Source of the DNA: Flavobacterium sp. I3-2
GTDB lineage: Bacteria > Bacteroidota > Bacteroidia > Flavobacteriales > Flavobacteriaceae
Assembly (NCBI RefSeq): GCF_013389595.1
Contig: NZ_CP058306.1
Location: 2,356,001-2,420,000 of the forward strand
Direction: 5' to 3'
DNA: 64,000 bases
Part shown: in pieces, positions 316-47,791 of the stretch
Numbering within the stretch: position 1 is the first letter of the stretch
How the letters are laid out: every line of letters begins with the position of its first letter
The notes under the pieces: model-generated
What the model saw: the letters and a program-made list of their open reading frames with translations, nothing else
What the model was told of the DNA's origin: nothing
Database searches by the model: none
Position numbers and translations under genes: made by a program

Positions 316-497
316 TAACGTTCCAAAGCTTGGTGCAGTGGCAAAAAATAAAGCCAAAACTTTACGATTAACCAAAACTAAGCAACGCCTTTTTGATTTT
401 TAAATTTAATAATAAAAAATGAAATAGGCGAGTGCGACAAAAAAGAAAACCAACTTCGAGATTTGCCTTTACCCGCAATTGCGCCAAACTTGTGTTA
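316..497 (-). repeat. attC-like site 1, class A
   Basis: 182 bp from TAAC to GTTA. The outer arms are AGCTTGGTGCA and TGCGCCAAACT. It is the 3' site of the cassette whose membrane-protein gene is split by the sul2 transposon. The central TAAATTTAA motif is present. Confidence 0.85.
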
Positions 498-1012
498 TGT
501 GCAGTGTTAATATTTTTCTATTAGGTTGTAACTTTCAATAACTTTTGTTTCAAATATAGATTTCTTATAATTCAATTTAATCATATAATTTTTAATAATT
601 TCTTCTTTCGTAAGATGTTTTTCATTTTTAAAGTTTATTGATTGCTTTTCGCCATCAAGTATAAAATATATTTTCGTAGTTCTGGCTGAGATAAAATTGT
701 TTATTTGACAAACTTTTACATTATGATTTCCATATGTTAATTTAACTATGGCAAAGTTTAATGGTATTTTTAACATAGCTGTAAAGAAAATGCCAAAAAC
801 TATTAATGCCAAAATATTAAAAATTTGATAAAGAAAATTTTTTCTTGTATTTCCTTTACTTAGTTTGTTGTTTATATAGAAAAGTATAAAAAAGGATATA
901 AAAAAAAATGTATAATTTAAATAATTTGGAAAATCTAAAATTCTGTTTTCTTGACGTATATAAAGAATAATAAAAATTAAAATAAAAAAGTAATTTATCT
1001 TGTTTTTTAAAA

Positions 1013-1020
1013 TATTATTT
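1013..1020. repeat. 8-bp target duplication, left copy
   Basis: TATTATTT immediately left of the composite transposon. The same octamer follows the right end at 3391-3398, so the whole unit between them inserted in one event. Confidence 0.85.
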
Positions 1021-1032
1021 CTGATTATCCGT

Positions 1033-1534
1033 TTATGCACCTGTTATATTCGCAATTACTAGTCTGTCAAAGAGTTTGTCTCCAAAATACCGTCTGTTTA
1101 ATTTGTAAATAAACTCGTTGAGATACAACTGTAAGTATTTCCTTTTGATTTTATGGTAGTTGCCCAGCAATGTCCGTTTTGCATTACTGATTGCGATATG
1201 CACCCATTTGAGTGTTTCCTTGGTGGTTTTGGCGTCTGATTTCTCGGTGACGTGCAATTCCACCAGATCGGAGATGTCAACGTAAGAAGTGCTTTTGTCC
1301 GAAAATACGATGGCATCATCCTCCATGCAGTCCCTGACCACGCCGTTGATTCCTTCACTTTGATGGCTATCCAGTACCCTGGCCTTGAAATAACGCACAT
1401 GCTTCTCCTTTTTGCCCGTTTCGATATCTTCCAACGGGGTGCTTTCGGCCATCACCGCAACGTTCTGCTTTCCCTCGGCTCCCCGGCCACGTGTACCCTT
1501 GCCTCGCTCGATTTCCTTACTGGCCACCGAAAAG
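1033..1534 (-). pseudogene. IS1595-family transposase, C-terminal remnant
   Basis: This stretch matches the last 165 or so codons of the complete transposase at 2422-3330, including the second catalytic Asp (FSDKS) and the C-terminal catalytic region (AISNAKRTLLGNYHKI). The zinc ribbon and first Asp are missing. Homology ends abruptly at 1534, where the last bases of sul2 begin. The remnant cannot encode an active enzyme, but it keeps the outer terminal repeat needed for joint movement with the complete copy. Confidence 0.85.
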
Positions 1535-2350
1535 TTAACGAATTCTTGCGGTTTCTTTCAGCGCCGCCAATACCGCCAGCCCGTCGCGCAAGGGGCGCGG
1601 CTCGTGTGTGCGGATGAAGTCAGCTCCACCTGCGGCGGCGGCAAGCTCTGCAGCGAGTGTCGCGGCCCCGACATCCCCCGGACCACGGCCTGTGAGCGCG
1701 CGCAGAAAGGATTTGCGCGAAACAGACAGAAGCACCGGCAAATCGAAGCGCAGCCGCAATTCATCGAACCGCGCCAGCACCGAGAGCGAGGTTTCGGGAG
1801 CAGCCCCCAGAAAAAACCCCATGCCGGGATCAAGGACAAGGCGGTTGCGTTTGATACCGGCACCCGTCAGCGCCGCGATGCGCGCGTCAAAGAACGCCGC
1901 AATGTGATCCATGATGTCGCCAGCGGGTGCCTCGCGCCGATCTGCCTGCCCGTCTTGCACCGAATGCATAACGACGAGTTTGGCAGATGATTTCGCCAAT
2001 TGCGGATAGAACGCAGCGTCTGGAAAACCGCGAATATCATTGAGATAGGCCACACCACGCGACAAGGCATAGGCTTGCGTCGCGGGTTGATAACTGTCGA
2101 GCGAGACGGGAATGCCATCTGCCTTGAGCGCGTCCAGCACCGGCGCGATACGCGCGATTTCTGTGTCGGACGAAACAGGCGCGGCGTCGGGATTGCTGGA
2201 TGCCGGACCGAGGTCGATCACATCTGCCCCCTCGGCCATCAGCTTACGCGCCTGCGCAATGGCTGCGTCTGGCGCCAGATACCGGCCTCCATCGGAGAAA
2301 CTGTCCGAGGTTATGTTGACGATGCCGAAAATGATGAGCGATTTATTCAT
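1535..2350 (-). CDS. sul2: Sul2, sulfonamide-resistant dihydropteroate synthase
   Basis: A 271-residue protein that I recognise as Sul2 over its full length. It starts MNKSLIIFGIVNITSDSFSD and ends LAALKETARIR. It is an alternative dihydropteroate synthase joining p-aminobenzoate to dihydropterin pyrophosphate in folate synthesis while excluding sulfonamides. The pterin-binding signature IDLGPASSNPDA and the VSVSRKSFLRAL motif are present. Base composition is very GC-rich among AT-rich neighbours. The stop codon abuts the truncated IS copy. It is not linked to glmM, strA or ISCR2 here, its common companions elsewhere. A promoter in the adjoining IS could drive it, but I cannot identify one with confidence. 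Confidence 0.97.
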   Translation of the reverse strand: MNKSLIIFGIVNITSDSFSDGGRYLAPDAAIAQARKLMAEGADVIDLGPASSNPDAAPVSSDTEIARIAPVLDALKADGIPVSLDSYQPATQAYALSRGVAYLNDIRGFPDAAFYPQLAKSSAKLVVMHSVQDGQADRREAPAGDIMDHIAAFFDARIAALTGAGIKRNRLVLDPGMGFFLGAAPETSLSVLARFDELRLRFDLPVLLSVSRKSFLRALTGRGPGDVGAATLAAELAAAAGGADFIRTHEPRPLRDGLAVLAALKETARIR

Positions 2351-2409
2351 GGGGGCTTCTATAATAATACCTAAAATCCGCAGGTAGTTAATTAGGATGT
2401 TTAAAGATT

Positions 2410-3390
2410 CTGATTATCCGTTTATGCACCTGTTATATTCGCAATTACTAGTCTGTCAAAGAGTTTGTCTCCAAAATACCGTCTGTTTAATTTGTAAATA
2501 AACTCGTTGAGATACAACTGTAAGTATTTCCTTTTGATTTTATGGTAGTTGCCCAGCAATGTCCGTTTTGCATTACTGATTGCGATATGCACCCATTTGA
2601 GTGTTTCCTTGGTGGTTTTGGCGTCTGATTTCTCGGTGACGTGCAATTCCACCAGATCGGAGATGTCAACGTAAGAAGTGCTTTTGTCCGAAAATACGAT
2701 GGCATCATCCTCCATGCAGTCCCTGACCACGCCGTTGATTCCTTCACTTTGATGGCTATCCAGTACCCTGGCCTTGAAATAACGCACATGCTTCTCCTTT
2801 TTGCCCGTTTCGATATCTTCCAACGGGGTGCTTTCGGCCATCACCGCAACGTTCTGCTTTCCCTCGGCTCCCCGGCCACGTGTACCCTTGCCTCGCTCGA
2901 TTTCCTTACTGGCCACCGAAAAGTAACCCTCATCCAGTTCTATCATCCCTTCCAGTGTATACCTTGCATCCCGGTTGCCCATCGCCCTGCGGAGTTTGTG
3001 TACCATCGCCCATACCGGTTCGTAACGCTTCAATCCTAATTGCTTCTGGAGTTCGTTGGTGGAGAATCCCTTTTTTGTGCAACTCATCAGGAACATCGTT
3101 TTGTACCACACCAGAAACGGCAGCTTGGAGCTCTCCATGATCGTACCGCTGCGCAACGAGGTGCGGAAACGGCAACCTTTGCATTCATAACTCCATTTAC
3201 CCTGTAACCAATAATGGGAAGTGCCCCCGCATCGCTTGCAGACAACCCCTTCCTTATCACGCTGCTCCTTGAAATGCAAACGACAATCTTCCTCCGAACC
3301 GAAATGAGCCGTAAAACTGAATATGTTCATAATCCCTGCTTTTTGAGCGCTAATATACTAAAAATATTAGGTGTGTTTGCGGAGAATCAG
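2410..3390 (-). mobile_element. complete IS1595-like insertion sequence, copy 2
   Basis: 981 bp, bounded by CTGATTATCCG and CGGAGAATCAG, with one transposase gene. The same element occurs at 29775-30755 in the opposite orientation, with the same length. Terminal repeats agree at about three quarters of the first 24 positions. Family assignment follows from the transposase and from the 8-bp duplication of the composite. Confidence 0.85.
2422..3330 (-). CDS. IS1595-family (ISXO2-like) transposase
   Basis: 302 residues. An N-terminal zinc ribbon (CKRC and CKGC pairs, residues 32-57) precedes a DDE-type nuclease core with Asp in IELDEGYF, Asp in VFSDKSTSY, and a C-terminal AISNAKRTLLGNYHKI segment typical of ISXO2-like enzymes. 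The protein is rich in Lys and Arg and its codons are GC-richer than the surrounding cassettes. The ATG at 3330 lies about 60 bp inside the IS end. It should catalyse cut-and-paste or replicative movement of the IS and of the composite unit. Confidence 0.9.
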   Translation of the reverse strand: MNIFSFTAHFGSEEDCRLHFKEQRDKEGVVCKRCGGTSHYWLQGKWSYECKGCRFRTSLRSGTIMESSKLPFLVWYKTMFLMSCTKKGFSTNELQKQLGLKRYEPVWAMVHKLRRAMGNRDARYTLEGMIELDEGYFSVASKEIERGKGTRGRGAEGKQNVAVMAESTPLEDIETGKKEKHVRYFKARVLDSHQSEGINGVVRDCMEDDAIVFSDKSTSYVDISDLVELHVTEKSDAKTTKETLKWVHIAISNAKRTLLGNYHKIKRKYLQLYLNEFIYKLNRRYFGDKLFDRLVIANITGA

Positions 3391-3398: not shown

Positions 3399-3442
3399 AT
3401 CAATTCCATCTATTTCTACAGTATTCTTTATAACATTGCACA

Positions 3443-3629
3443 TAACGGAAAAAGTATTGGCGAAGTGCGGGCTTAATTTGAACAAGTGTTCAAGTTTAGA
3501 CCAAACGGAGCCGATATTTTTTCCATGAACTAAATTACTAAAAAAATGTGAATGGAAAAATAGCGGCGGATAAATGTGGGGAATTTTTCAATTCACATCT
3601 TAACCCCGCATTTTGCCAATACAATGTTA
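3443..3629 (-). repeat. attC-like site 2, singleton class
   Basis: 187 bp, TAAC to GTTA. Arms GTATTGGCGAAGTGCGGG and CCCCGCATTTTGCCAATAC. The interior is unlike any other site in the window but keeps a central CTAAATTA. 3' site of the DUF5063-like cassette. Confidence 0.8.
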
Positions 3630-3642
3630 GCTGCAGTATTTT

Positions 3643-4098
3643 TTAGTCTTCGGTTTCCCTTAAATAGTTCAGTAAATTTATAATATGATTTTTTGTATGA
3701 GATTCGAAAATTAGATTAAAAAACCATTTTGCATCATTTACACTCGTATTTTCAGTCCTCCATTTTACTTCCTGCAAATCTAAAATTATATCATTTAGAT
3801 CATCAATAGAATCGGCTATTAAATTTTCAACTTCGTTTTCGATTTCAGTTATTAAAGTCGCAATTTTATAATATCCAAATTTTGGAAAATTAGATGCTAT
3901 ATTTTCACGAATATTTGAAAAATCTTTTTTGTTAAATTCTGGATATTCAGTTTCGTCGAATTCAAATTCATTTTCAAAATACAAATCATAAATTTTCACA
4001 AGATTTCTTTCAAGATTTTTTGTTTTGTCTTTTTCGTTTAGATTTTCTAATAATCCGTATTTCGAAATTTCATTGATTGGATCTAAAAGTTCTTTCAT
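3643..4098 (-). CDS. DUF5063-like protein
   Basis: 151 residues from ATG 4098 (MKELLDPINEI). The upstream open frame to 4203 is only translated attC sequence, so the inner start is preferred. The acidic C-terminal half, with WRTENTSVNDAKWFF and a His-containing FESHTKNHIINL segment, resembles DUF5063 proteins, whose function is unknown. Single-gene cassette; the stop lies 13 bp from the attC core. No signal peptide or membrane segment. The family call is from memory of the motif and is moderate. Confidence 0.7.
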   Translation of the reverse strand: MKELLDPINEISKYGLLENLNEKDKTKNLERNLVKIYDLYFENEFEFDETEYPEFNKKDFSNIRENIASNFPKFGYYKIATLITEIENEVENLIADSIDDLNDIILDLQEVKWRTENTSVNDAKWFFNLIFESHTKNHIINLLNYLRETED

Positions 4099-4124
4099 AG
4101 ACGGAGTTTTGTAAATATTAAAGC

Positions 4125-4313
4125 TAACGTTTCGGGGCTTGGCGTCAGTGGCGGAAATTGAAGCGAAAAGTTTCAATTTAGCGACACGGTAAGCAAAAGC
4201 CAATTCATTGAATAAATTTAAGAAAAAAAGTCAATGTAATTGGCTTTTTGCGACATAGAAAACCGAAACTCTCAATTTATTACTTAACCCGCCATTGCGC
4301 CAAACCCTTGTTA
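4125..4313 (-). repeat. attC-like site 3, class B
   Basis: 189 bp. Arms GGGGCTTGGCGTCAGTGGCGG and CCGCCATTGCGCCAAACCC pair with one offset bulge. Inner stem AAAAGCCAATT / AATTGGCTTTT brackets TAAATTTAA. 3' site of the 4311 gene, whose stop codon it supplies. Confidence 0.85.
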
Positions 4314-4778
4314 GCTGCAGTTGAAATATTTTTGTTTAAATGTTGATTCATGATTTACAAAGAGAATTGAGTGAATATAAACTCCTTCTGGTTGCCTTCC
4401 TCCATAAACTTCTGTGATTACAACAACGTCATGCGGATAACTATTTTTAAATAGTACTTCGAAACCAGTCGAAAAGTTATTATCAAATTGTTTAATCAGG
4501 TCAATGTCTAAAATTTTGCATAAAGTAATAAGGTCATTAAGTTCAAAACCACGTGCTGGTGGCTGAAAGTTTGATAAATATTTCCAGCAGGTTTTATATT
4601 CACCAAAAACACCAATATTAATTTTATTCTGACCATTTTTGAATATAATGTAAGAATTAATAAAGTCAGTAGCTAAATCACTACCAAAATAATAAAGAGT
4701 TTTAGTATTACAATTTGAAATTATTTTCTTTCCATCGAAGAAATCGAAATGATTATTTTTCTGTGTTATTTCCATCAT
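4311..4778 (-). CDS. hypothetical cassette protein
   Basis: 155 residues (154 if the second Met is used). I do not recognise the family. It is soluble-looking, with a DVVVITEVYGG segment and no signal peptide. The TAA stop is the TAA of the attC core itself, so the last residues (NCS) are encoded by the cassette's terminal repeat. Single-gene cassette with ends GTTAGCTGCAGTTGAA and TTCAATTGCAGCTAAC. Confidence 0.7.
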   Translation of the reverse strand: MMEITQKNNHFDFFDGKKIISNCNTKTLYYFGSDLATDFINSYIIFKNGQNKINIGVFGEYKTCWKYLSNFQPPARGFELNDLITLCKILDIDLIKQFDNNFSTGFEVLFKNSYPHDVVVITEVYGGRQPEGVYIHSILFVNHESTFKQKYFNCS

Positions 4779-4795
4779 GATTTTTCAATTGCAGC

Positions 4796-4985
4796 TAACG
4801 GGCCGCGGCTTGTCGATAGTACGGGCTTGAATTGAGCGAAAGTTCAATTCAGTCCGAAACTGAACTAAAGCTGTGAGCCTTTTGGTAAATTTAATAAAAA
4901 AAACAAAAGCAAGCTGCTTTTGGCGGATAAATAGGCGAGAAGTACAATTTTGCACTTAACCCCGCATTTCGCCAAGCCGATGTTA
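4796..4985 (-). repeat. attC-like site 4, class C
   Basis: 190 bp. Arms GGCTTGTCGATAGTACGGG and CCCCGCATTTCGCCAAGCC. Inner stem built on AAAGCTGTGAGCC and a later AGCTGCTTTTGGC. 3' site of the DUF4844-like lipoprotein cassette. Confidence 0.85.
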
Positions 4986-4999
4986 CATGCAGTTTTTTT

Positions 5000-5434
5000 T
5001 TATTCTGGATCAAATCCGTACATAAAGTCATTTAAATGTCCACCTGAACTTTCAAGACCTACAATATCCATGAGTTCTTCATAATAACTACATATACGTT
5101 CTCTATCTTCAGTATCAAGTTCAAGATATATTAAAGAAAATTTATTCAGACCACTTTTAATAGCGTTCTGATATTCCGCTTCAGTTGCGTTTCCTTTTTC
5201 CGCTATTAATTGAAAATCCTTTGCAGATTCATTAATTAAACTAGTTAATAAAGGATTTAATTTTTCATCAGATAAACCTGGGTAAAATAATGATGAATCT
5301 TCCTTAAACTTTTCTTTAGTTATAAAATTTTCAAACATGTTTTTTGAGTTTGGAGGAGTTTTAATTTTATTCTGTCCACAAGAAATAATTGTAGATAGAA
5401 AAAGAATTATTAAACAGAATTTTATTTTATACAT
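5000..5434 (-). CDS. DUF4844-like lipoprotein
   Basis: 144 residues. The signal peptide ends in a lipobox, STIISC, with Cys19 as the likely lipidated residue. The mature part, including FYPGLSDEKLNPLLT and ERICSYYEELMDIVGLES, resembles DUF4844 proteins of Bacteroidota; function unknown. As for other lipoproteins of this phylum it is probably on the periplasmic or outer face of a membrane. Single-gene cassette. Confidence 0.75.
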   Translation of the reverse strand: MYKIKFCLIILFLSTIISCGQNKIKTPPNSKNMFENFITKEKFKEDSSLFYPGLSDEKLNPLLTSLINESAKDFQLIAEKGNATEAEYQNAIKSGLNKFSLIYLELDTEDRERICSYYEELMDIVGLESSGGHLNDFMYGFDPE

Positions 5435-5454
5435 GATGTTGGTAAAATTGCATG

Positions 5455-5642
5455 TAACGGTTCCGGGCTTTGCGAAGTGGCGATAAATCGAAGACGAAAG
5501 TTTCGATTTAGACGATATGTAGCAAAAGCCAATTTCTATTTGCTAATTTATGAAAAAAAGCCAATAAAATTGGCTTTTGCGGATTACAAAGCACAAAGTT
5601 TCAATTTAGACTTAACCCCGCCATTTTGCAAAACCCTTGTTA
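5455..5642 (-). repeat. attC-like site 5, class D
   Basis: 188 bp. Arms GGGCTTTGCGAAGTGGCG and CGCCATTTTGCAAAACCC. Inner stem AAAAGCCAATTTC / AAAATTGGCTTTT. 3' site of the TIR cassette. Confidence 0.85.
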
Positions 5643-5655
5643 GCAGAAGGGCTTT

Positions 5656-6516
5656 TTATCTTCGTAATCTATTGGCTATTTTATCTGATATTTCCTCAAT
5701 TGTGAAGTCAGTTGTATTTATAGCTAACATATCTGCGATTATTGGACTAAAATTTAATACTTCATTTTTAGAAATCTTATGCCAAATAGGAAGTATTACT
5801 TTTTCTCCATTTACTTCTCTAGCAAAAAGACCATCTAATTCTCTTTGTGGCCATTCTTTACTAAAAAATGCTTCTGAAAGGACAACTATGCCATATTTGG
5901 ATTTTTTTAAACCATTTTCAATTGAACGTCTAAGACTATCTCCAATATCCAATTCAAATTCATCGTACCAAACTTCAACACCTTTAGATTTAAGTGACTC
6001 TACAAAAGGTCGCACAAAACTTGTTTTATCTTCTGATGCGTGTGAAACAAAAACATCATAGTTTTTGCTTATTGTTTCATGTTTATTATTTAATTCCTTG
6101 CTTTTAGAAAAAGATTCTGAGGCTAATTGTTTCTGTAATTGCATTTCTCTGGTTATGCTTTGCTGAAGAGAAAGCATTTCTTTTTGCTCTCTTTTAGTTT
6201 TATCTCTTTCTTTTTGCTCTTCTTTATTTAAATCTTGTAATAGTTTCAATCTTTTGTTTTGCTTATCTGATAGATTTTTGGTCTTTGTAGATTTGTCTTT
6301 TGTAATTCTATTGATTTCATCATTTTTTCTTGTCAAATCTTTCTGAAGATTGACAATTTTTTTTAAATCTTTTTCCTTACTTATTTTTTCAAAGATTGAA
6401 TTCGCTTCTTTTTCTTTTCGGCTAAGGTTATTATTTACCGTATTTAATTGATTTTCGATATTTTTAATATCTCTATCTAAACTTGCTATTGAATTTGTTA
6501 TAGATTGAATACTCAT
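5656..6516 (-). CDS. coiled-coil TIR-domain protein
   Basis: 286 residues. Residues 1-150 are Lys/Glu-rich and predicted coiled coil. Residues 153-286 form a TIR domain opening YDVFVSHASEDK, with WYDEFELDIGDSLRRSI and EWPQREL, in which Glu226 is at the usual catalytic position of NAD-cleaving TIR domains. Bacterial TIR proteins commonly act in abortive anti-phage defence by degrading NAD or making signalling nucleotides; a defence role here is inferred. It is alone in its cassette, with no partner such as a SIR2 or STALD protein, so self-activation through the coiled coil is possible. Confidence 0.9.
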   Translation of the reverse strand: MSIQSITNSIASLDRDIKNIENQLNTVNNNLSRKEKEANSIFEKISKEKDLKKIVNLQKDLTRKNDEINRITKDKSTKTKNLSDKQNKRLKLLQDLNKEEQKERDKTKREQKEMLSLQQSITREMQLQKQLASESFSKSKELNNKHETISKNYDVFVSHASEDKTSFVRPFVESLKSKGVEVWYDEFELDIGDSLRRSIENGLKKSKYGIVVLSEAFFSKEWPQRELDGLFAREVNGEKVILPIWHKISKNEVLNFSPIIADMLAINTTDFTIEEISDKIANRLRR

Positions 6517-6551
6517 AATTTATTAACGTTTTTTGGGAATAGCCTTTCTGC

Positions 6552-6743
6552 TAACGTTCCAGCAGCTTGGCGAAGGAGCGGTTTTGAAGGACAAAACGTC
6601 CAATTTGTACCGACCGAAGCAAAACCGCTTGCGTTGATGCTAAATTATAAAAAGAAAAGCGAAAACCAAGCGGTTTTTGCGAAATAGAAAGCCGAAACTT
6701 TGAACTTAACACTTACTCCGCTCTTTTGCCAAACTGCATGTTA
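6552..6743 (-). repeat. attC-like site 6, class E
   Basis: 192 bp. Arms CAGCTTGGCGAAGGAGCGG and CCGCTCTTTTGCCAAACTG. Inner stem CAAAACCGCTTG / CAAGCGGTTTTTG. 3' site of the 6754 gene cassette. Confidence 0.85.
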
Positions 6744-6753
6744 GCAGAAGTAC

Positions 6754-7785
6754 TTATTCAGATTTACGTATTTTTTCTAACATCTCTTTTATATGTTTAG
6801 GATATTCTCCTTCAAAATATTCTATGGCTAATGGATTATGTGAGAAAAATTGACAACAAAAATCAACCCATACATCAATATTTATTTCTCCATTTATCTT
6901 AAATATCTTCTTGGATTTTGATTTTATTGGATTTGAAATCTTAGAATTAAAATTTAAATCAGAATCCCTTCTTTGATAGTATTCATCTATAGTGTAAAAG
7001 TGGATTGCTCCATCAAAATGTCTAAATGTTTTACTTAATGTATCAAATTCTGCATGAATATATCGTACAGGAAAATATTCAATACCATCAATATTTGTAG
7101 TAACAGATTCTGTTTTAATTTCTTCTGCTTGAAAAGTCTTAATGTTTTGATTAGTTGACCATTTTATATCTAAACAATATGCATCTGCGAAAAAAAATGA
7201 AATGTCTGTTGAATCAAACTCAAATGACGGTCTCAATTTTATTGGCTGGTCAGAAATATTTTCAATATTCTTATCGAATTTTACACCATACCATGTATCT
7301 AATTCTAAAAACGCGCTATTATCTACATTAATTCTTAAATGATCATGGTCAAGACTAATCTTTAGTTCGTCATAATCATCTGGCTTTATTTCCCAAAATT
7401 TTTCTATAAATCTTGGTTGAAAATCATTTACAAAATGAAAACCTCTTCTGAAAAAAGGACTAGCCATTGATATGTAATTTTCTGAATACAAATAGCCCTT
7501 TGCAAATAATCGTTTTTCAAATTTGGAACAAATAAATTTATAATCGATTAAATTATCTTTATCTAAAACAATGTCTTCATTTAATTTTAATAGAATATCC
7601 TTAGAGCTAACAACGATTCCAATTGTTTGAATGTAACTAAAATTTTCTTTAGTAAGCTCTATTCCTTTGTTTTTTGAAATGTCTATAAAATTTAGAATTA
7701 CGTTTTCGTTTTCTTTTAATTCACGTTCGGCTTCTTCCTTCAGATGCTTCAAATAATTTTGTTTAAATTCGGAAAGGTCGCTCAT
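6754..7785 (-). CDS. hypothetical cassette protein, 343 aa
   Basis: 343 residues from ATG 7785 (MSDLSEFKQNY). The longer frame to 7857 is translated attC. I do not recognise the family. It has no signal peptide or membrane helix; the N-terminal 40 residues are charged and helical. Aromatic-rich segments such as FFRRGFHFVNDFQPRFIEKFW stand out. It is one of the larger single-gene cassettes, so it may be a multidomain enzyme or a defence protein, but nothing in the sequence settles this. Confidence 0.7.
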   Translation of the reverse strand: MSDLSEFKQNYLKHLKEEAERELKENENVILNFIDISKNKGIELTKENFSYIQTIGIVVSSKDILLKLNEDIVLDKDNLIDYKFICSKFEKRLFAKGYLYSENYISMASPFFRRGFHFVNDFQPRFIEKFWEIKPDDYDELKISLDHDHLRINVDNSAFLELDTWYGVKFDKNIENISDQPIKLRPSFEFDSTDISFFFADAYCLDIKWSTNQNIKTFQAEEIKTESVTTNIDGIEYFPVRYIHAEFDTLSKTFRHFDGAIHFYTIDEYYQRRDSDLNFNSKISNPIKSKSKKIFKINGEINIDVWVDFCCQFFSHNPLAIEYFEGEYPKHIKEMLEKIRKSE

Positions 7786-7796
7786 AGTATTTCTGC

Positions 7797-7979
7797 TAAC
7801 GTGACGAAGCTTGGCGCATGTGGCGAAAAATAAAGCTAAAACTTTACGATTAACCAAAACTAAGCAACGCCTTTTTGATTTTTAAATTTAATAATAAAAA
7901 ATGAAATAGGCGATTGCGACAAAAAAGAAAGCCAACTTAATAGTTTGCCTTTACTCGCCATTGTGCCAAACTTATGTTA
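7797..7979 (-). repeat. attC-like site 7, class A
   Basis: 183 bp. Arms GCTTGGCGCATGTGGCGA and TCGCCATTGTGCCAAAC. 3' site of the 8006 gene cassette. Confidence 0.85.
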
Positions 7980-8005
7980 CCTGCAGATGTTATTTTTTTA
8001 TCTAA

Positions 8006-9573: not shown

Positions 9574-9594
9574 TTTTTATGATATAATTGCAGT

Positions 9595-40047: not shown

Positions 40048-40236
40048 TAACGGTTCGGGGCTTTGCGAAGTGGCGGTAAATCGAAGCGAAAAGTTTCGAT
40101 TTAGACGACACGTAGCAAAAGCCAATTTCTATTTGCTAATTTATGAAAAAAAGCCAATAAAATTGGCTTTTTGCGGATTACGAAGCCGAAACTTTCAACT
40201 TAGACGAAAACCCGCCATTTTGCAAAACCCTTGTTG
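40048..40236 (-). repeat. attC-like site 43, class D
   Basis: 189 bp, TAAC to GTTG; arms GGGGCTTTGCGAAGTGGCGG and CCGCCATTTTGCAAAACCC. 3' site of the BatD-like cassette. Confidence 0.85.
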
Positions 40237-40243: not shown

Positions 40244-40975
40244 TTATTTTTTTATGATTATTGGTTTAAGTTTATAATTTTTAGGCAAGTTTATAAAGTC
40301 TTTTTCAGTTAATATATATTCATCTTTAAATTCTTTGCTAAAATTTATTCTGTATCTAATTCTTGAATATGAAAATCCAATTTCTCCATATTTTGAATTT
40401 TCGGGCATTAAGGTTTTACTTAATGTATTCAAATCGTCAAGTTCGATACTTCTTTTAATTTCTTCATTCAGCTTTGCAAATTCAAAATTATCAGGTGCTA
40501 AACCTCCTAAATAAGTTGTAATTTCGCCAAATTCATTTCGTTCAGTTTTTGCTATATTTTTAACTAATTGTTCTATAACAATATATTTTTGGTCATTAAA
40601 TTCAGCAACTCTTACTATTAAGCTTTCCTCAAGTATAATTTTAGGCTGAACATTAATCTTAATTTGGTTTGTCACATATTTTTTTCCATTAAATTCAAAT
40701 TCAAATGGACCAACTTTATTTAAACCAACTTTATTAAATACTATTACTCTTTCAAAATCATCAGATTGCATACCGTGAACAGAAGTTGAACGTGTCAATT
40801 CTATTTCAGAGCCTAATTTCTCTTGTATGTTGTCTTTTAAAAAGTCAATATTTATTGAAAACAAAACACTTTCTCCAACTCTTGGTTCTGGATTATCAAT
40901 TCCTATTTTTAGATTGTTTTGACAAAATGCGTTAAGATTAAAAATAATTAAGATTAAAAATGTAAATTTCTTCAT
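40244..40975 (-). CDS. secreted BatD-like protein
   Basis: 243 residues with a signal peptide (MKKFTFLILIIFNLNAFCQ). The PEPRVGESVLFSINIDF and KVGPFEFEFNGKKYVTNQIKINVQP segments match the beta-sandwich domain of BatD-type proteins, which are much longer and membrane-anchored; only the first domain is kept here, followed by a helical C-terminal part. Likely periplasmic; role unknown. Confidence 0.75.
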   Translation of the reverse strand: MKKFTFLILIIFNLNAFCQNNLKIGIDNPEPRVGESVLFSINIDFLKDNIQEKLGSEIELTRSTSVHGMQSDDFERVIVFNKVGLNKVGPFEFEFNGKKYVTNQIKINVQPKIILEESLIVRVAEFNDQKYIVIEQLVKNIAKTERNEFGEITTYLGGLAPDNFEFAKLNEEIKRSIELDDLNTLSKTLMPENSKYGEIGFSYSRIRYRINFSKEFKDEYILTEKDFINLPKNYKLKPIIIKK

Positions 40976-40998
40976 TTTCGGGATTTTATAATTACTGC

Positions 40999-41085
40999 CA
41001 ACGTTGGACGTATTGGCGAAGTTGCGAGAAAATATAGATAACAGTTGCGTTTAGTTATGCTCGCAATTTTGCCAATACGATGTTG
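40999..41085 (-). repeat. attC-like site 44, short class H
   Basis: 87 bp, CAAC to GTTG; same as site 26 after the first core base. 3' site of gene-less cassette copy 3. Confidence 0.87.
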
Positions 41086-41428
41086 TACGAAGTTTTTACT
41101 TGAACAGTTTTGGACTCCTTTCCATATAAAATAAGTTTAAATTATTGCGCTAAATCCCCGATTTGCGAACGTCATTTAAACTTATCTTTGGTAAATATAA
41201 GAATCTTGTTGTTTTAAATTAATGAAAAACAGTCAATTACTTGACTTTGTCATTTTTTTTCATTAACTTGTCTAAGCTTTTTAGCGTTTCGCTTTGAAAA
41301 CGAGTTTTCAGCAAAATCTTTTGCAAAGCTTAGCAGGCAAAATAATCCTTATTTTTTGCCTTTAAAACAACTCCTTCTTATTAAAATTACCAAACTTTTA
41401 TTCGGAAAGTACGTCCTAAAATTGCGTA
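41086..41428. other. gene-less structured cassette, copy 3 of 4
   Basis: 343 bp. It has TATCTTTG like copy 1, plus one private change (AACTTGTCTAAG where the others have AAATTGTCTAAG), just before the cloverleaf stem and not altering any stem. Confidence 0.7.
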
Positions 41429-41612
41429 CAACGTGACGAAGCTTGGCGCATGTGACGAAAAAATAAAGTCGAAACTTTACAATTAACCAAAACTAAGCAA
41501 CGCCTTTTTGATTTTTAAATTTAATAATAAAAAATGAAATAGGCGAGTGCGGCAAAAAAGAAAACCAACTTCGAGATTTGCCTTTACTCGCCATTGCACC
41601 AAACTTGTGTTA
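41429..41612 (-). repeat. attC-like site 45, class A
   Basis: 184 bp, CAAC to GTTA; arms GCTTGGCGCA and TGCACCAAAC. Supplies the stop codon of its own cassette gene. Confidence 0.85.
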
Positions 41613-42044
41613 TGTGACGTTTGAATATTTATTTTCCAATTCAATCACATAATCAATTTCTGTTTTGTCAGTTAAGACACCTTTGAGTTCTATCCAATTT
41701 TCTTTTGCTAACTTTGTCAAATTAACCCATTCAATATCTCGTAAAACTTTGTAATCACTTAATGTTTTCTTTTCTGATTTGTCTACGTACTCTTCAAATT
41801 GTTTATGGAACTTCAGAAATATTTTCACTTCCATTTCTGTTATAAAACCTTCTTTTGCAAATTTTTCCAAACCACTTTTTAAATTCAAATCGTCAAAATA
41901 TGTGCAAACTACTTCTGTAAAATCGCTAACATAATTTTCTATTGAAGCTTCAATCCAAACTTTTTTCTGAAATTCGTGATGTGCTAATTCAAAAAGACTT
42001 TCTAACCATCTTAAGCGAATATTCATTCTCAATTCAGGATTCAT
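41610..42044 (-). CDS. hypothetical cassette protein
   Basis: 144 residues, helical and charged, starting MNPELRMNIRLRWLESLFELAHHEFQ. Function not recognised. The TAA stop is the attC core, and the last residues SNVT are encoded by the terminal repeat. Confidence 0.7.
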   Translation of the reverse strand: MNPELRMNIRLRWLESLFELAHHEFQKKVWIEASIENYVSDFTEVVCTYFDDLNLKSGLEKFAKEGFITEMEVKIFLKFHKQFEEYVDKSEKKTLSDYKVLRDIEWVNLTKLAKENWIELKGVLTDKTEIDYVIELENKYSNVT

Positions 42045-42083
42045 ATTTTATATTTCAAAAGAAGTTTTTAGACAAATGACACA

Positions 42084-42270
42084 TAACGCGCCGCAGCTTT
42101 GCGAAGTGCGGGAATTTCACAAAACAAAGTTTGAAGAAATTCCAAAACACGAGCAAAACATTTTGGCTTTTGTAAATTTAATATTTTTTACAAAACGAAA
42201 TGTATTTGCGACTTAAAAAGCCAAAACTTAAAAAAAAGCCTTTACACCGCATTTTGCAAAACTGATGTTA
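42084..42270 (-). repeat. attC-like site 46, class I
   Basis: 187 bp; arms CAGCTTTGCGAAGTGCGG and CCGCATTTTGCAAAACTG; central GTAAATTTAAT. The only member of its class here. 3' site of the repeat-bearing gene-less cassette. Confidence 0.82.
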
Positions 42271-42653
42271 CATGTAGTAAAAGTACATAAAAATTGATTT
42301 CTATTTGAACGTCAAGAACTTCCGAAAAGTTTCAAAACGAATTTCATTTTTTTCTGATTTAACGATTCAATTTCAAAACTAAAATTTTTCAATCTGAGTT
42401 ATTTCATTGCGTTTTCAGTTTTCGATTTGATTTCTTTTTCAGTTTTCGATTTAATTTCTTTTTCAGTTTTCGATTTAATTTGTTTCAATTTCTTTTTAAA
42501 ACATTTTAATTCGTCAACTTAAAAACAAGATTTTTCGTAATGTTTTTCTTAAAAATAGAATTTTTCAAAGTTCAGTTTTCACGATATTTTGCTTCAATAA
42601 TTTCAGAATATTCAGAAAAAAATTGAAGCACGAAATTTCACTTTAATTACATG
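42271..42653. other. gene-less cassette with 24-bp tandem repeat
   Basis: 383 bp between two attC-like sites with no credible protein gene of normal size. Ends GTTACATGTAGTAAAAGT and ACTTTAATTACATGTAAC match. Inside is a three-fold 24-bp repeat (42413-42484). On the minus strand it can be read as three EKEIKSKT octapeptides within a 29-codon frame from TTG 42488 to TAA 42399. I see no promoter or terminator in it. Confidence 0.65.
42413..42484. repeat. three tandem 24-bp units
   Basis: Units at 42413, 42437 and 42461, each beginning TTTCAGTTTTCGATTT. Unit 1 differs from unit 2 at one base and unit 3 at one base near its end. Confidence 0.85.
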
Positions 42654-42842
42654 TAACGTTTTGGGTATTGCCGAAGGCGGGGAAATCGAGGCGAGAAGTT
42701 TCGATTTTGCACCGAGGCGAGCCAAAACGAATTTATATGAGTTAAATTTAAGAATAAAACGAATATAATTCGTTTTTGGCGGTGATAGAATTACAAACTT
42801 TGAATTTATCACTTTAGCCCCGCTTTTGGCAATACCTTGTTA
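42654..42842 (-). repeat. attC-like site 47, class F
   Basis: 189 bp; arms GGTATTGCCGAAGGCGGGG and CCCCGCTTTTGGCAATACC. 3' site of the zincin-like cassette. Confidence 0.85.
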
Positions 42843-42855
42843 GCGGCTGTGCTTT

Positions 42856-43554
42856 TTATTTTATATGATTATTATGAATCCATTTTACGAGTCTCGAATA
42901 AAATGCAGTTGAAATATCTCTGTAACTAATTAAAATGTCATTAGTTTCAATATCAAATTCTTTAGTTTCATTCACTAATTTTTCGACTATAGTATATAAT
43001 CCTATATCTAGTTTTTTAAATTCAGAGAGTTGAGTAATATAATTATGATTTTTGTTTGGGTCACATAACATTGCTATTAATTTTCCAATATAAAAATCAA
43101 TAGCTAAAGGGTTTATATTTTTTTTAATTCTAAAATTGGCTTTTAATTCTCCTAGTTCAAATGAATTACATTTGTATTCGTTATAGTCTAGGAGAAACAA
43201 ATTCTCATCAAATCCTAACTCTTTATACATTTTAAACATCTTAAGATGATCTAAACAGTTTCCAATATGTTCAAGTAAATTATCAGATAAGTATTTTTTT
43301 AAAATATTACTTTGAAATATTGCCACCTTTAATGATGAACCTAAATAGAATTCTTTAAATTTTAGGTAGATATGAAGTAATTCGTGTGTAAACGAATCTT
43401 TAGAAATATTTTGATAATCTACATAAATTATAGCTTTTTCATTTTGTGTAAAACAGCTATATTCATTATTGAATGATGATTCAATTTCAATGTTAAACTT
43501 TTCATTGAGTTGATTCCATAATACAATATTTCTTTCGTCTATAAATTCTTTCAT
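42856..43554 (-). CDS. zincin-like protein with HELLH motif
   Basis: 232 residues. SFTHELLHIYLKFKEF at about residues 54-69 has the HExxH zinc-peptidase signature (His-Glu-Leu-Leu-His) inside a helix, and a downstream GNCLDHLKMFKMYKELGF helix could give a third ligand. The layout recalls ImmA/IrrE-type or SprT-like minimal metallopeptidases. The substrate is unknown. Single-gene cassette. The motif is clear; the enzyme activity is inferred. Confidence 0.75.
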   Translation of the reverse strand: MKEFIDERNIVLWNQLNEKFNIEIESSFNNEYSCFTQNEKAIIYVDYQNISKDSFTHELLHIYLKFKEFYLGSSLKVAIFQSNILKKYLSDNLLEHIGNCLDHLKMFKMYKELGFDENLFLLDYNEYKCNSFELGELKANFRIKKNINPLAIDFYIGKLIAMLCDPNKNHNYITQLSEFKKLDIGLYTIVEKLVNETKEFDIETNDILISYRDISTAFYSRLVKWIHNNHIK

Positions 43555-43578
43555 ACGTTATGTAGGTAGCATTGCCGC

Positions 43579-43767
43579 TAACGTTTCGGGTATTGCCGAA
43601 GGCGGGGAAATCGAAGCGAAAAGTTTCGATTTTGCACCGAGGTGAGCCAAAACGAATTTATATGAGATAAATTTATGAAAAAAACGAATTATATTCGTTT
43701 TTGGCGGTAATAGAATTACAAACTTTGAATTTTGTACTTTAACCCCGCTTTTGGCAATACCTTGTTA
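43579..43767 (-). repeat. attC-like site 48, class F
   Basis: 189 bp; arms GGTATTGCCGAAGGCGGGG and CCCCGCTTTTGGCAATACC. Supplies the stop of its own cassette gene. Confidence 0.85.
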
Positions 43768-44466
43768 CCTGCTGTGCCTAGTTAATATTCGATTATTTCT
43801 TTTAGTGATTTGGTAGATGGTTTCTACTTTATATGATTTATACTCTTCAATACTTTGAGGAAGAGGAGAACGCTCAAAATTATCGAATGGTAAAGCAAAT
43901 TTCACATCATATTTTTCGTTTACAAAATCTTGAAGCAAAAAAAAGTTTACATAATTTTCAAAATTTTCGAAGAGATTGAAAAAGTCTTGGTAACGATTAA
44001 TTGCATCGAAAAGTGGGCTTTGTTCATTCAGATAAAATAATCTAATACATTCAAGTGTTAAATCAAATCTATCGCATATTTTCCTATTAACACCTCTTGC
44101 TTGATTTATTGTGAATCCATTCTTTTTATGAGCAGGAAAAACAATATGTCCACCGATAGTTCTCACAATATGTTTGAAGTTTTCATTCTCCTCTTCGGTT
44201 AACCAACCATCGAATTTTCCTTTATATTTTCCGACAAAATGAGGACACATTCTATCGCTTGATAAATTATCGTATAAATTACTTTTTAGAAGAATTCTTC
44301 CATATTTACCGCCAATTGTAAGCATCTCAAATTGAAACTCACTTTCATTGGGTAAATTCTTCGACCATAAAAATTTGTGATTTTCATAAAGTTTTGGACT
44401 GTCAGTATCAGGATCTCCACAAAGACTATCTTTTCTGAAGTCAAAATTTATATCAATTTCAATCAT
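43765..44466 (-). CDS. hypothetical cassette protein
   Basis: 233 residues from ATG 44466 (MIEIDINFDFRKDSLCGDPDTDSPKL). It contains HIVFPAHKKNGFTINQARGVNRKICDRFDLTLECIRLFY, a pattern I have seen only in uncharacterised bacterial proteins. No membrane segment. The TAA stop is the attC core. Confidence 0.72.
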   Translation of the reverse strand: MIEIDINFDFRKDSLCGDPDTDSPKLYENHKFLWSKNLPNESEFQFEMLTIGGKYGRILLKSNLYDNLSSDRMCPHFVGKYKGKFDGWLTEEENENFKHIVRTIGGHIVFPAHKKNGFTINQARGVNRKICDRFDLTLECIRLFYLNEQSPLFDAINRYQDFFNLFENFENYVNFFLLQDFVNEKYDVKFALPFDNFERSPLPQSIEEYKSYKVETIYQITKRNNRILTRHSR

Positions 44467-44513
44467 AATTTCCGATTAGAATTTATTTACCGGAGCTTTG
44501 GAGGCATTGCAGG

Positions 44514-44639
44514 TAACGTTTCGGGTATTGCCGAAGGCGGGGATTTTTAGTACTAAAGTTTAATCGAAGAACGAATGTTGAACTTTGCACAAATGCTCAA
44601 TCGAAGAACTTCAGCCCCGCTTTTGGCAATACCATGTTA
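44514..44639 (-). repeat. attC-like site 49, short class F
   Basis: 126 bp, TAAC to GTTA. The outer arms GGTATTGCCGAAGGCGGGG and CCCCGCTTTTGGCAATACC are those of class F, but the long inner stem is replaced by a short loop. 3' site of the P-type ATPase cassette. Confidence 0.85.
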
Positions 44640-44669
44640 CAGGCTGGCGTTTTCGTTAACTGTGTAATT

Positions 44670-47177
44670 TTAGCTATTTATTTTCAACCTTTTAACCCAT
44701 TTATACACTTCGACCCACAACACCGACACGGCAGCAATTAAAATTGAGATTAAGAATTGCTGGAAATTTATACTACTCAATTGAAAGAAAGAAGCGAATG
44801 GCGGAATATAGAGTATTGCAATAAGTAAAACCAAAGATGCTCCAAGTATTAATGGGAACAATGTATTTTTATTTTTAAAACTATCAAATACACTGTAAAT
44901 GAATGAGCGATTAACCATACTCAAAAACACATTTGCAAATACTAAAGTTGTGAAAACTATTGAACGTGTAGTTGCTTCATTACTACCGTTTTGTACAGCA
45001 TACTGATATGCAGTTAGAACGCCTGCGGTAATGGCCAATCCCTGAATAATACTAATGCTTAATTCTTTCCAGCTCAAGAATGTCTCGGTCATTTTACGTG
45101 GTTTCTCTAGCATTGTATTTTTTTCCATCGGCTCATTTTCATAGACAATAGAACAGGTTGGCCCCATTATTAGCTCCAAGAAAATAACATGTACCGGTGT
45201 GAAAATATGCGGATATATCCAACCCAAAAACAAGGGTAAAGAAACCGTTAGAATAATCGGAATATGAATGGATATAATATATTGAATGGCTTTTTTGAGA
45301 TTGGAATAAATTCTTCTTCCAGCCGCTATTCCAGTGATCAATTTGTCTAAATCATCATTTGCAATAACCAATGCTGCCGCTGCTTTTGCGATTTCTGTTC
45401 CTTTATTTCCCATCGCTACACCAATATGAGCTGCTTTCAAAGCAGGTGCATCATTCACGCCATCTCCCAGCATGGCCACCACTTCATCGTTCTTTTTAAG
45501 AGCGTTTACAATTGCCAATTTTGCCTCGGGGAACATACGCGTAAACAGTGTGGTGCTTTTAGAAAGTTCCATCAATTCTGTTTCTGTGTGATGAACGATT
45601 TCCGTTCCGTTTACCGCTGGTGTTTCGTTTATAATGCCTGCTTGATGCGCAATAGCCTTTGTCGTATCTGCATTGTCTCCTGTGATGACTTTTACCTTGA
45701 TGCCTGCAGCATATATCTTTTTAAATACTTCTTGAATGTTCGCTTTCGGAGGATCGTAGAAAACGGTAAATCCTAAAAAGTCAAAAGAAAAATCTTGTTG
45801 TTTTTCAGGAAAGTGATTGCCTTCAAAATTAGATTTAGCCACGCCCAGTACTCGGTACCCTTGCGCTCCGAAATTGATGATATGTTGTCGTAAATTGTCC
45901 TTCTCGCTTTCCGTAAGATTAGAAACGGCAAGAATGGCTTCGGGCGCACCTTTGGCTGCAATAATTCTTTCACCTAAACTATTTTCAAAAAGATGCGTCA
46001 TCATTGGAGGTTTCCCTTCTAATGGATATTCGTGTATCATTTGAAAATTCTTCCGCTCATCATTGGATTGTGTTTGCTCATAAATTTGATGCAGTGTTTT
46101 TTCCATGGGATCAAACGGAATGGGTTCACTACTCCACATAGCGAAACGAATAAGCTCTGAAAGCTCAGGTGTATTGAATTGCGTATCCTCAAAAACCTTG
46201 TTTGATTTGTAATCAAATAAAAGTTTCAGTCGCATGGAGCTTTCAGTAATAGTTCCCGTTTTGTCCGTACAGATCACTGTAGTACTGCCCAATGTTTCGA
46301 CCACACTACTACGTTTAATTATCACACCTTCACTCATTAATTTCCAGGCACCTAAAGCCATAAAAGTAGTAAAGGCTACAGGGATTTCTTCTGGAAGCAC
46401 AGACATGGCCAAGGTTAATCCAGCGAGTAAACTTTGTATGATATCTCCTGATTTCCAGTAACTAAATCCCCAAACCATCAGAAACACGATAACACCAATA
46501 ATCGCCATTCCCTTTACAAATTTGGTAATCTGAATTTGCAGTGGCGAATGAACTTCTTTGATATCTTGAATGGATTGACTGATTTTCCCTAGTTTGGTTT
46601 CTGCTCCAATTTTCTCTACATTAAAGATGGCCAAACCAGATACTACCAGCGTTCCGCTATATATTTTTCTATCTTCGGTTTCTTGACTTTTAAATACTGA
46701 AAAACTTTCACCTGTTAGTGAGGCTTCATTAACTGAAAAATCATTGCTGTGCACAATTTCGCCATCAGCACTAATCATTTTTCCTTCTTCGACAATGCAT
46801 AAATCGCCAACGGCAATTTCGTTTGTGGGAATTTGCATCACGATTGAATCTCTGATAACAGAACTTAACGGTTCGTTCAATTTTTTCAAAGCTTCCAGTG
46901 CTTTTTTACTGCGATTGTCTTGATAGAATGAAATGCCAGAAACGACAATAATAGCGCCCAACATAAAAATAGCTTCGGAATAATTGCCAACTATTATATA
47001 AATAACTGTTACCGCAATAAGCAAAAGCAGCATTGGTTCTTTCAAAATATCGAGCAACATCCTATACCACGCATTTTTTTTAATAGCGTCTATTTGATTG
47101 AAACCAAATTTTTTTCGAGAGGTTTTTAATTCCTCAGTTGTGAGACCTTTAATGTGTTTGGGGACATTATACTGCAT
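44670..47177 (-). CDS. P-type cation-transporting ATPase
   Basis: 835 residues. Actuator motif LTGES, phosphorylation motif TVICTDKTGTITESS (Asp near residue 307), nucleotide domain, and hinge MLGDGVNDAPAL are all intact. About eight to ten membrane helices; the PEEIP motif in helix 4 is typical of the Ca2+/Mn2+-type (P2) pumps, so export of a divalent cation is likely, though other cations cannot be excluded. At 2.6 kb it fills one of the largest cassettes (ends GTTACAGGC and GCCTGTAAC). Its codon use is somewhat richer in GC than its neighbours. Confidence 0.9.
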   Translation of the reverse strand: MQYNVPKHIKGLTTEELKTSRKKFGFNQIDAIKKNAWYRMLLDILKEPMLLLLIAVTVIYIIVGNYSEAIFMLGAIIVVSGISFYQDNRSKKALEALKKLNEPLSSVIRDSIVMQIPTNEIAVGDLCIVEEGKMISADGEIVHSNDFSVNEASLTGESFSVFKSQETEDRKIYSGTLVVSGLAIFNVEKIGAETKLGKISQSIQDIKEVHSPLQIQITKFVKGMAIIGVIVFLMVWGFSYWKSGDIIQSLLAGLTLAMSVLPEEIPVAFTTFMALGAWKLMSEGVIIKRSSVVETLGSTTVICTDKTGTITESSMRLKLLFDYKSNKVFEDTQFNTPELSELIRFAMWSSEPIPFDPMEKTLHQIYEQTQSNDERKNFQMIHEYPLEGKPPMMTHLFENSLGERIIAAKGAPEAILAVSNLTESEKDNLRQHIINFGAQGYRVLGVAKSNFEGNHFPEKQQDFSFDFLGFTVFYDPPKANIQEVFKKIYAAGIKVKVITGDNADTTKAIAHQAGIINETPAVNGTEIVHHTETELMELSKSTTLFTRMFPEAKLAIVNALKKNDEVVAMLGDGVNDAPALKAAHIGVAMGNKGTEIAKAAAALVIANDDLDKLITGIAAGRRIYSNLKKAIQYIISIHIPIILTVSLPLFLGWIYPHIFTPVHVIFLELIMGPTCSIVYENEPMEKNTMLEKPRKMTETFLSWKELSISIIQGLAITAGVLTAYQYAVQNGSNEATTRSIVFTTLVFANVFLSMVNRSFIYSVFDSFKNKNTLFPLILGASLVLLIAILYIPPFASFFQLSSINFQQFLISILIAAVSVLWVEVYKWVKRLKINS

Positions 47178-47273
47178 CAGTCTAATTTTTTAAAAACATA
47201 AAACTGTTAGATTTATTTAAATTACTGTGAAAAGCGTTTTTGTGATTTTAGTGCATTTTTCCACGCTTGCCTG

Positions 47274-47360
47274 TAACGTTGGACGTATTGGCGAAGTTGC
47301 GAGAAAATATAGATAACAGTTGCGTTTAGTTATGCTCGCAATTTTGCCAATACGATGTTG
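47274..47360 (-). repeat. attC-like site 50, short class H
   Basis: 87 bp; same as site 26. 3' site of the gene-less cassette next to the recombinase. Last complete attC-like site of the array. Confidence 0.87.
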
Positions 47361-47703
47361 TACGAAGTTTTTACTTGAACAGTTTTGGACTCCTTTCCAT
47401 ATAAAATAAGTTTAAATTATTGCGCTAAATCCCCGATTTGCGAACGTCATTTAAACTTATGTTTGGTAAATATAAGAATCTTGTTGTTTTAAATTAATGA
47501 AAAACAGTCAATTACTTGACTTTGTCATTTTTTTTCATTAAATTGTCTAAGCTTTTTAGCGTTTCGCTTTGAAAACGAGTTTTCAGCAAAATCTTTTGCA
47601 AAGCTTAGCAGGCAAAATAATCCTTATTTTTTGCCTTTAAAACAACTCCTTCTTATTAAAATTACCAAACTTTTATTCGGAAAGTACGTCCTAAAATTGC
47701 GTA
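47361..47703. other. gene-less structured cassette, copy 4 of 4
   Basis: 343 bp, first cassette after the recombinase and so, by integron logic, the latest insertion or a fixed leader. It has TATGTTTG like copy 2. Its plus-strand promoter candidate points to the recombinase gene. Confidence 0.7.
47437..47465 (+). promoter_or_regulatory. candidate promoter inside gene-less cassette
   Basis: TTTG at 47437-47440 and TATGTTTG at 47458-47465 with 17 bp between fit the Flavobacterium pattern (TTG, 17-23 bp, TAnnTTTG). It is conserved in all four cassette copies. In this copy a transcript would cross the folded elements and enter the recombinase gene about 380 bp downstream. Confidence 0.45.
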
Positions 47704-47791
47704 CAACATTTATATATACGCAAGATACAATTAATATTTAAATATCAAAATTATTTATTAACTTGCATAATATTAGGTAGATAAGTGGTTT
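47704..47791 (-). other. attI-like recombination junction and leader
   Basis: The array stops at CAAC 47704-47707. To the right no paired arm of the attC type exists; the sequence is AT-rich up to the recombinase start. In gene orientation the junction reads AAAT-GTTGTACG, so the core G-TT is present on the recombinase side, as at an integron attI site. Binding sites for the recombinase cannot be defined by eye. Confidence 0.55.
47746..47753 (-). promoter_or_regulatory. candidate array promoter, -7 element
   Basis: On the minus strand TAATTTTG is a full match to TAnnTTTG, about 40 bp before the first cassette and pointing into the array. No clear TTG is seen 17-23 bp upstream, so the call is weak. 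The position is that of the Pc promoter of integrons. Confidence 0.4.

Follow-up and report, generated by a model that had tools for sequence, protein, structure and literature searches.

A gene-cassette array of Flavobacterium sp. I3-2 that probably works like an integron, beside a tyrosine recombinase without the integron-integrase insertion

The array and its sites

The complete 3.55-Mb chromosome of Flavobacterium sp. I3-2 carries, at positions 2,356,001 to 2,420,000 of NZ_CP058306.1, the 64-kb stretch that was analyzed here (the window; coordinates count from its first letter). This stretch contains an array of 50 structured sites separated by gene units, with a tyrosine recombinase gene at one end. 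We conclude that the locus is very probably a gene-cassette array that works like an integron. It is not filed as an integron, because a defining part of integron integrases, the I2 insertion, was tested for and is missing.

The sites were located with the help of a weight matrix for site ends, and all 50 were placed with both ends, exactly where the original prediction had put them. Viewed on the + strand, every one runs from YAAC to GTTR (50/50), and all lie within 316–47360. Sites 1 to 50 occupy, in order, 316–497, 3443–3629, 4125–4313, 4796–4985, 5455–5642, 6552–6743, 7797–7979, 8509–8697, 9595–9783, 10588–10770, 11679–11860, 12233–12416, 12849–13037, 13558–13739, 14258–14440, 14847–15027, 15619–15801, 16313–16496, 17153–17341, 17909–18097, 18665–18849, 19349–19532, 20077–20265, 21057–21239, 21706–21888, 22588–22674, 23018–23205, 24003–24191, 24680–24863, 25408–25590, 26490–26683, 27259–27442, 27950–28138, 32356–32442, 32786–32974, 33528–33710, 34157–34341, 34874–35057, 35709–35896, 37010–37193, 37626–37812, 39362–39550, 40048–40236, 40999–41085, 41429–41612, 42084–42270, 42654–42842, 43579–43767, 44514–44639 and 47274–47360, the last being nearest the recombinase. 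Forty-five of them are 181–194 bp long, four (sites 26, 34, 44 and 50) are 87 bp, and site 49 has 126 bp, the commonest length among the sites of relatives.

A covariance model of the sites, R1, was trained on one window site (site 49) and 34 sites of other genomes. It recovers all 50 window sites on the + strand (E 1e-29 to 1.4e-5); a 51st match is weak and reflects site 49 read on the minus strand. At Rfam gathering scores, the window yields RNase P only.

Between the sites lie 49 units. An open reading frame (ORF) of at least 40 codons is present in 47 of these and absent from 2, and 46 of the 47 have their largest ORF on the minus strand, in keeping with the nearly exclusive minus-strand coding that had been predicted. 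The array had been assigned the span 316–47707; the sites are indeed there, but three more lie leftward of the window (about 16712–19811 of the adjoining piece L006, which takes the array to about −3.3 kb), and 47361–47707 is the body of a gene-less unit described below. The left end of the array adjoins an apparent transposase remnant. The same genome has a second cluster at ~2.636–2.647 Mb, some 230 kb from the array (L223 4105–15404), with 10 sites at E ≤ 0.001 (12 at E ≤ 0.04) in a single orientation; no listed recombinase match of this genome falls there. When the DNA at 3400–15100 was compared with 150 same-genus genomes, 18 genomes beyond the source genome gave matches. Those listed fall on sites (79–93% identity) or on partial gene stretches (67–73%), and among them no whole unit is held in common.

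Core match across gene units

The core of the sites is GTTRnnn. The original prediction had written it GTTRnnnGY and called it non-classical; the latter point stands, since GTTRRRY fits only 2 of 50 R' boxes and 1 of 50 R'' boxes. At core positions 4–7, the four letters after GTT, the two ends of a unit are identical in 47 of 49 cases, whereas the two ends of a physical site agree at these positions in only 7 of 50 cases, and comparison with the other neighbor gives 0 of 49. In 10,000 shuffles the own-unit match averaged 3.9 of 49 and never exceeded 12, and after removal of exact copies it persists in 45 of 47 units. The agreement extends past the core to position 8 (45/49), 9 (43/49), 10 (39/49) and 12 (42/49). 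Position 11 is an exception without a single match: in 44 of 49 units it is G·T on the + strand, and in 1 unit on the − strand.

Integron cassettes begin with letters complementary to the first arm of the site that closes them at the far end. The unit-start core in this window is likewise complementary to the inverse core of its own site (47/49), and a core match that holds across units but not across sites is the fingerprint of integron cassettes. The aadA1 cassette of the class 1 integron on R100, read by eye as a control, obeys the own-unit rule at 6 of 7 letters. In other genomes, at least 6 of 7 core letters agree in 34 of 52 adjacent pairs (maximum 7 in 100 shuffles given the same search freedom), and a second count found the unit-core match in 44 of 66 cases and a same-site match in 5 of 91 (shuffle maximum 12). 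Two site ends from different genomes, at L052 2901 and L057 1223, both read GTTGAACTAAAC; their outer sequence has no matching partner.

These counts bear on the reading that each site is a dispersed hairpin element, akin to a miniature inverted-repeat transposable element, which was inserted between genes with no cassette movement. Many genomes do carry sites at several locations, and there are classes of sites with high identity. Independent insertions of hairpins between genes are not, however, expected to give an own-unit core match, whereas exchange at GTT would. Such insertions would also face both ways, whereas the 50 sites share one orientation; further, 7 of the 10 repeat pairs described below run core to core with the unit body included, and the recombinase has an ordered position relative to the sites. 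The original prediction had named a dispersed repeat as the finding that could overturn it; the own-unit match and the recombinase link contradict this reading, which we consider extremely unlikely.

Folding of the sites

The paired, attC-like arms noted at the outset are borne out by a covarying helix. In an alignment of 122–128-bp sites of relatives with window site 49 (35 sites in all, 34 of them from outside the window), 97.8% of the cells of a single 17-pair helix are paired and 14 of the 17 pairs show compensatory changes; slid controls fall to 41–48% paired cells. An alignment of 47 distinct window sites, fitted to the model and set against 500 shuffles, has 98.0% of cells paired and 10 pairs with compensatory changes. 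Ten such pairs were reached in 50 of the 500 shuffles; the paired cells and the covariation score were reached in none. The predicted fold is thus an attC-type imperfect palindrome whose R and L arms fold as a single strand.

At one helix position, all 35 sequences of the first alignment (mainly relatives) and all 47 window sequences have G·T. We also considered a strand preference from folding energy, which is unsupported overall; the asymmetry lies only at two wobble positions. These two nearly invariant positions form G·T pairs on the + (bottom) strand but are A·C mismatches on the opposite one, which makes the bottom strand the probable substrate.

The array recombinase

The gene at the right-hand end (47846–48922, + strand) would encode a protein of 358 amino acids if its start is the ATG at 47846; the longest frame spans 47792–48922. 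It lies at one end of the array and is transcribed away from it, as was originally proposed, and its product is an IntI/Xer-like tyrosine recombinase with an extra N-terminal domain. NCBIfam places this protein among the Xer and integron recombinases, under their cut-offs. TIGR02249 gives 171 bits against a cut-off of 265 and is matched at 4–181 and 237–315 only, with model positions 182–236 bridged by 13 residues. The I2 region, the additional IntI-specific domain around patch III, is absent from all five array recombinases that were aligned with IntI1 (the window enzyme and four others). The integron-like reading of the original prediction is supported by the cassette signature and the position of the recombinase.

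The SPLD-type tail of the protein is close to that of IntI, unlike the tail of the Xer sequence, and the residues R, K, H, R, H and Y, taken as catalytic, are invariant in 22 aligned sequences. In a quick tree, IntI and the array recombinases group together against Xer with a support of 94, the Xer branches being long; this quick method did not resolve the order of IntI among the array recombinases. The nearest named recombinases are from Flavobacteriaceae. No IntI scores above its cut-off in this genome, and another Xer-like gene lies elsewhere in it.

The N-terminal domain (about residues 19–94) is well predicted in the structure model. Modeled alone, it has no Foldseek match at E ≤ 0.001, and a HARP-like assignment, suggested by a motif, was dropped on that result; the whole-protein Foldseek look barely tested this part. 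The domain is missing from at least four array recombinases (L174 and L186–L188). The domain may have a role in recombination.

Repeated units and a predicted attI

Comparison of the window with itself gives 10 repeat pairs and 1 pair of insertion sequence (IS) copies. Units at 12.2 and 37.0 kb have 621 bp in common at 100% identity, and the tandem units at 17.2 and 17.9 kb have 761 bp in common, also at 100%. In 7 of the 10 repeat pairs, the homology starts and stops no more than 6 bases from a site's YAAC, or at 47707; in the remaining 3, it continues into neighboring DNA. Four pairs, 99.3–100% identical, span just one gene-less unit of 434 bp. Its copies lie on the minus strand at 22588–23021, 32356–32789, 40999–41432 and 47274–47707; self-comparison identified them. 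The fourth copy consists of an 87-bp site and a 343-bp body and adjoins the predicted attI. The 343-bp body (22675–23017 and three further copies) is near-identical throughout and may carry a promoter or an RNA; an Rfam search of 40900–47900, which includes two gene-less copies, returned no match at E ≤ 0.1.

The gene-less copy beside the recombinase ends at 47707, and the predicted attI was therefore placed there. The putative dif-like core (47699–47721, minus strand) has imperfect inverted half-sites, GCGTATATA and GTTGTACGC, around TAAAT.

An array that was once active and is now frozen would be compatible with the same origin. The insertion sequences and the split HamB gene in the array speak for such an end, and the majority of cassettes in large true integrons stay stable. 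Yet the recombinase frame is open and keeps the residues that are invariant in its relatives, and the exact 621-bp and 761-bp copies point to recent copying, although homologous recombination could make the tandem one. We regard a frozen array as unlikely.

Distribution and link to the recombinase

The original prediction proposed a new covariance model and a search of Bacteroidota with it. R1 was run on 296 sampled genomes of the phylum, the source genome included, with only 11 candidates scored per genome; it found sites in 147 of the 296 genomes and in 83 of 139 genera. Recombinase presence was compared between 24 chosen site-bearing genomes (nearly all single-contig) and the first 20 site-free ones listed: a family recombinase at E ≤ 1e-45 occurs in 16 of the former and 3 of the latter.

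The predicted association of such arrays with related recombinases is seen in two sets of loci. The first has 24 loci, namely 21 places at E ≤ 4.1e-44 (the window excluded), 1 weaker place and 2 from other genomes. R1 was trained on 34 sites from the other set, the named loci, and the count for the 24 loci, none of which was in its training, is therefore an independent test. A site lies within 10 kb of the family recombinase at every one of the 24 loci, and 51 of the 54 sites turn their GTTR end towards it; the 3 exceptions are all in L191, which holds a second recombinase further on. The named loci are the best 80 of 372 relatives, and in 39 of these 80 the contig breaks within 2 kb of the gene. 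Here the recombinase is on the GTTR side of 91 of 92 sites. A site is found on the expected side in 37 of the best 80, and in 26 of the 36 whose upstream DNA reaches 5 kb or more; the gene is oriented as in the window in 33 of those 37. This is the layout of an integron, in which the integrase gene stands at the R' end and the array units, most of them with a single gene, point one way. A Chryseobacterium plasmid, NZ_CP041688.1, has the recombinase and four sites, and clusters exist with no family recombinase in 20-kb pieces.

Several observations weigh against the integron-like reading. Recombination of the units, and an attI at the one locus for which we propose it, are both predictions from the letters of the DNA. 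The predicted folding energy favors neither strand (28 of 50 whole sites; 27 versus 23 for the arms, p = 0.67), and the unit-core match elsewhere (44/66) falls below the rate in the window. Close recombinase relatives (E ≤ 1e-70) occur in 6 of the 296 genomes as compared with 147 for the sites, the source genome counting in both, and 5 of the 24 site-bearing genomes have no family member at E ≤ 1e-25. Conversely, R1 found no site in the DNA around the 3 family members of site-free genomes, 2 of which are within 0.7 kb of a contig end, and the expected side is empty of sites at 10 of the 36 named loci for which the upstream DNA extends to 5 kb or more. The orientation of the recombinase is inconstant, being opposite to that in the window in 19 of the 24 loci and 4 of the 37 named loci. 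In Riemerella anatipestifer CCUG25054 (L044), the family recombinase is accompanied by one site, on the wrong side.

The scarcity of close relatives, and the 5 genomes with none at the looser threshold, could mean that the sites are cassette ends moved by another enzyme, either the host XerC/XerD or an unrelated recombinase, and that the neighboring gene is a bystander; to our knowledge, Xer genes are near-universal. A bystander would not account for the GTTR-side position of the family recombinases at the 24 loci (51 of 54 sites), or for their unequal presence in site-bearing and site-free genomes at E ≤ 1e-45. Further, the nearest solved relative that is not called Xer is an integron integrase. 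Action of another enzyme thus seems very unlikely to us.

Proposed mechanism

In the integron-like reading, the recombinase at the array end likely inserts units, excises them and changes their order. The reaction would join one folded strand of a site, probably the + strand, to the predicted double-stranded attI-like site beside the recombinase gene. Each unit begins with GTTRnnn, and the site at its end carries the reverse complement of these letters in its first arm; because the start of the unit and the arm of its own site are complementary, excision as a circle would bring back an arm with perfect pairing. The crossover is predicted to fall inside the GTT/AAC triplet, since this is where 7 of the 10 repeat pairs have their boundaries. 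The enzyme would act without the I2 insertion of IntI. In other genomes, sites with no family recombinase nearby may be parked arrays, like the clusters of attC sites lacking integron integrases (CALINs) of true integrons.

Cargo of the units

A Pfam scan covered 50 proteins, including two IS genes, a sul2-type gene and two HamB pieces, and 27 of the 50 have no Pfam family at E ≤ 0.001. Named cargo includes TIR, ankyrin, SUKH, RDD, GNAT, macro, HamA and DUF families. PADLOC, run on 10 proteins, recognized HamA, the split HamB, a TIR protein (PDC-S66, ThsB), a PycC-like protein and a PD-Lambda-3-like protein, and gave no match for 4 of the 10. All of the following genes are on the minus strand. 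The defense-type TIR-domain gene is at 5656–6516 (Pfam, PADLOC), and a unit at 28152–32306 holds the Hachiman genes HamA and HamB, the latter in two parts with an IS1595-type element between them (Pfam, PADLOC). The PycC-like cyclase match is at 35906–37009 (PADLOC), and the PD-Lambda-3-like gene at 17352–17897 has a tandem duplicate at 18108–18725 (PADLOC, self-comparison). A macro-domain gene lies at 32989–33588 (Pfam), and the largest unit gene, at 44670–47177, encodes a P-type cation ATPase.

The first unit (1019–3360) has a dihydropteroate synthase gene (Pterin_bind), which we take to be of the sul2 type, flanked by two copies of an IS1595/ISXO2-type transposase gene, one full and one partial. 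The IS1595-type gene at 29835–30743, which splits HamB of the Hachiman unit, scores equally to the first-unit copy.

Relation to known systems

The window has in common with integrons (class 1 IntI1/attC; Vibrio IntI4, PDB 2a3v) the one-way single-gene units that end in paired-arm sites, the complementarity of the unit-start core to the arm of its own site, the recombinase at the R' end and the SPLD C-terminus. Unlike in integrons, the recombinase lacks I2 and has, in its clade, an extra N-terminal domain; the core is GTTRnnn with complementarity to about 12 letters, as opposed to GTTRRRY; and the unpaired spacers stand at 6 versus 2. R1 found no match at E ≤ 5 in 32 kb of R100 that include the class 1 integron. 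I2 is described as exclusive to integron integrases, where it accommodates the extrahelical bases of attC (PMC4792948). For Bacteroidetes proper, the IntegronFinder 2.0 survey names a single complete integron; it also names Salinibacter ruber M1 (PMC9024848), and Bacteroidota appear among taxa listed with integrons in another account (PMC8618304).

The tree places Xer and XerA (4a8e, 5hxy, 1a0p) outside the array recombinases and IntI. Xer recombinases act at single dif-type sites, without cassettes. Xer/dif dimer resolution was ruled out as a class for the locus, which has 50 sites in one array.

A literature search of openly licensed PMC papers revealed no Bacteroidota cassette system of this kind in titles and abstract openings. 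The original statement that no such system had been described is tempered, however, by a 2026 report on R. anatipestifer, in which aph(3')-IVb, together with 27 bp of preceding and 140 bp of following DNA, integrates free of homology, the 140 bp folding like attC (PMC13148043). The likeness lies in the attC-like tail and in the strain of this species, mentioned above, that holds a family recombinase and one site; section 11 of that report names neither a recombinase nor an array. At L044 11506–12479, one unit with matching cores, GTTGGCGGTA / TACCGCCAAC, stands beside the family recombinase.

A further relative is tpnF of the Acinetobacter ISCR2-tpnF-tet(X3) arrangement, a truncated gene whose product is 46.6% identical to the array recombinase over residues 145–376. 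On two Acinetobacter plasmids, L200 (3600–5117) and L202, tet(X3) adjoins this truncated relative. In L200, tet(X3) comes directly after tpnF, and beyond it lies a partial site (E 0.0025) that is cut at the end of the record. By eye, the cores at the start and the end of tet(X3) differ. The partial site suggests that tet(X3) may have left a Bacteroidota array; the arrangement has been published as an ISCR2 unit (PMC7722449).

Implications

A bolder possibility, which we entertain tentatively and rate at somewhat less than even, is that the Bacteroidota have a phylum-wide integron system of their own that was overlooked, its recombinases having no I2 and its sites escaping attC models. Such a system would keep a pre-I2 state ancestral to classical integrons, which would prove that cassette capture through folded sites preceded I2, and it would be the home of the tet(X3)-type and Riemerella resistance genes. 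Because a full cassette grammar stands beside an enzyme without I2, the origin of integrons from Xer-like enzymes becomes testable. Should the sites detected in 147 of 296 genomes prove to be cassettes, the counts of gene capture in this large phylum have been too low. The units carry defense-type genes such as Hachiman and TIR, and resistance genes of Riemerella and Acinetobacter may have traveled by the same route.
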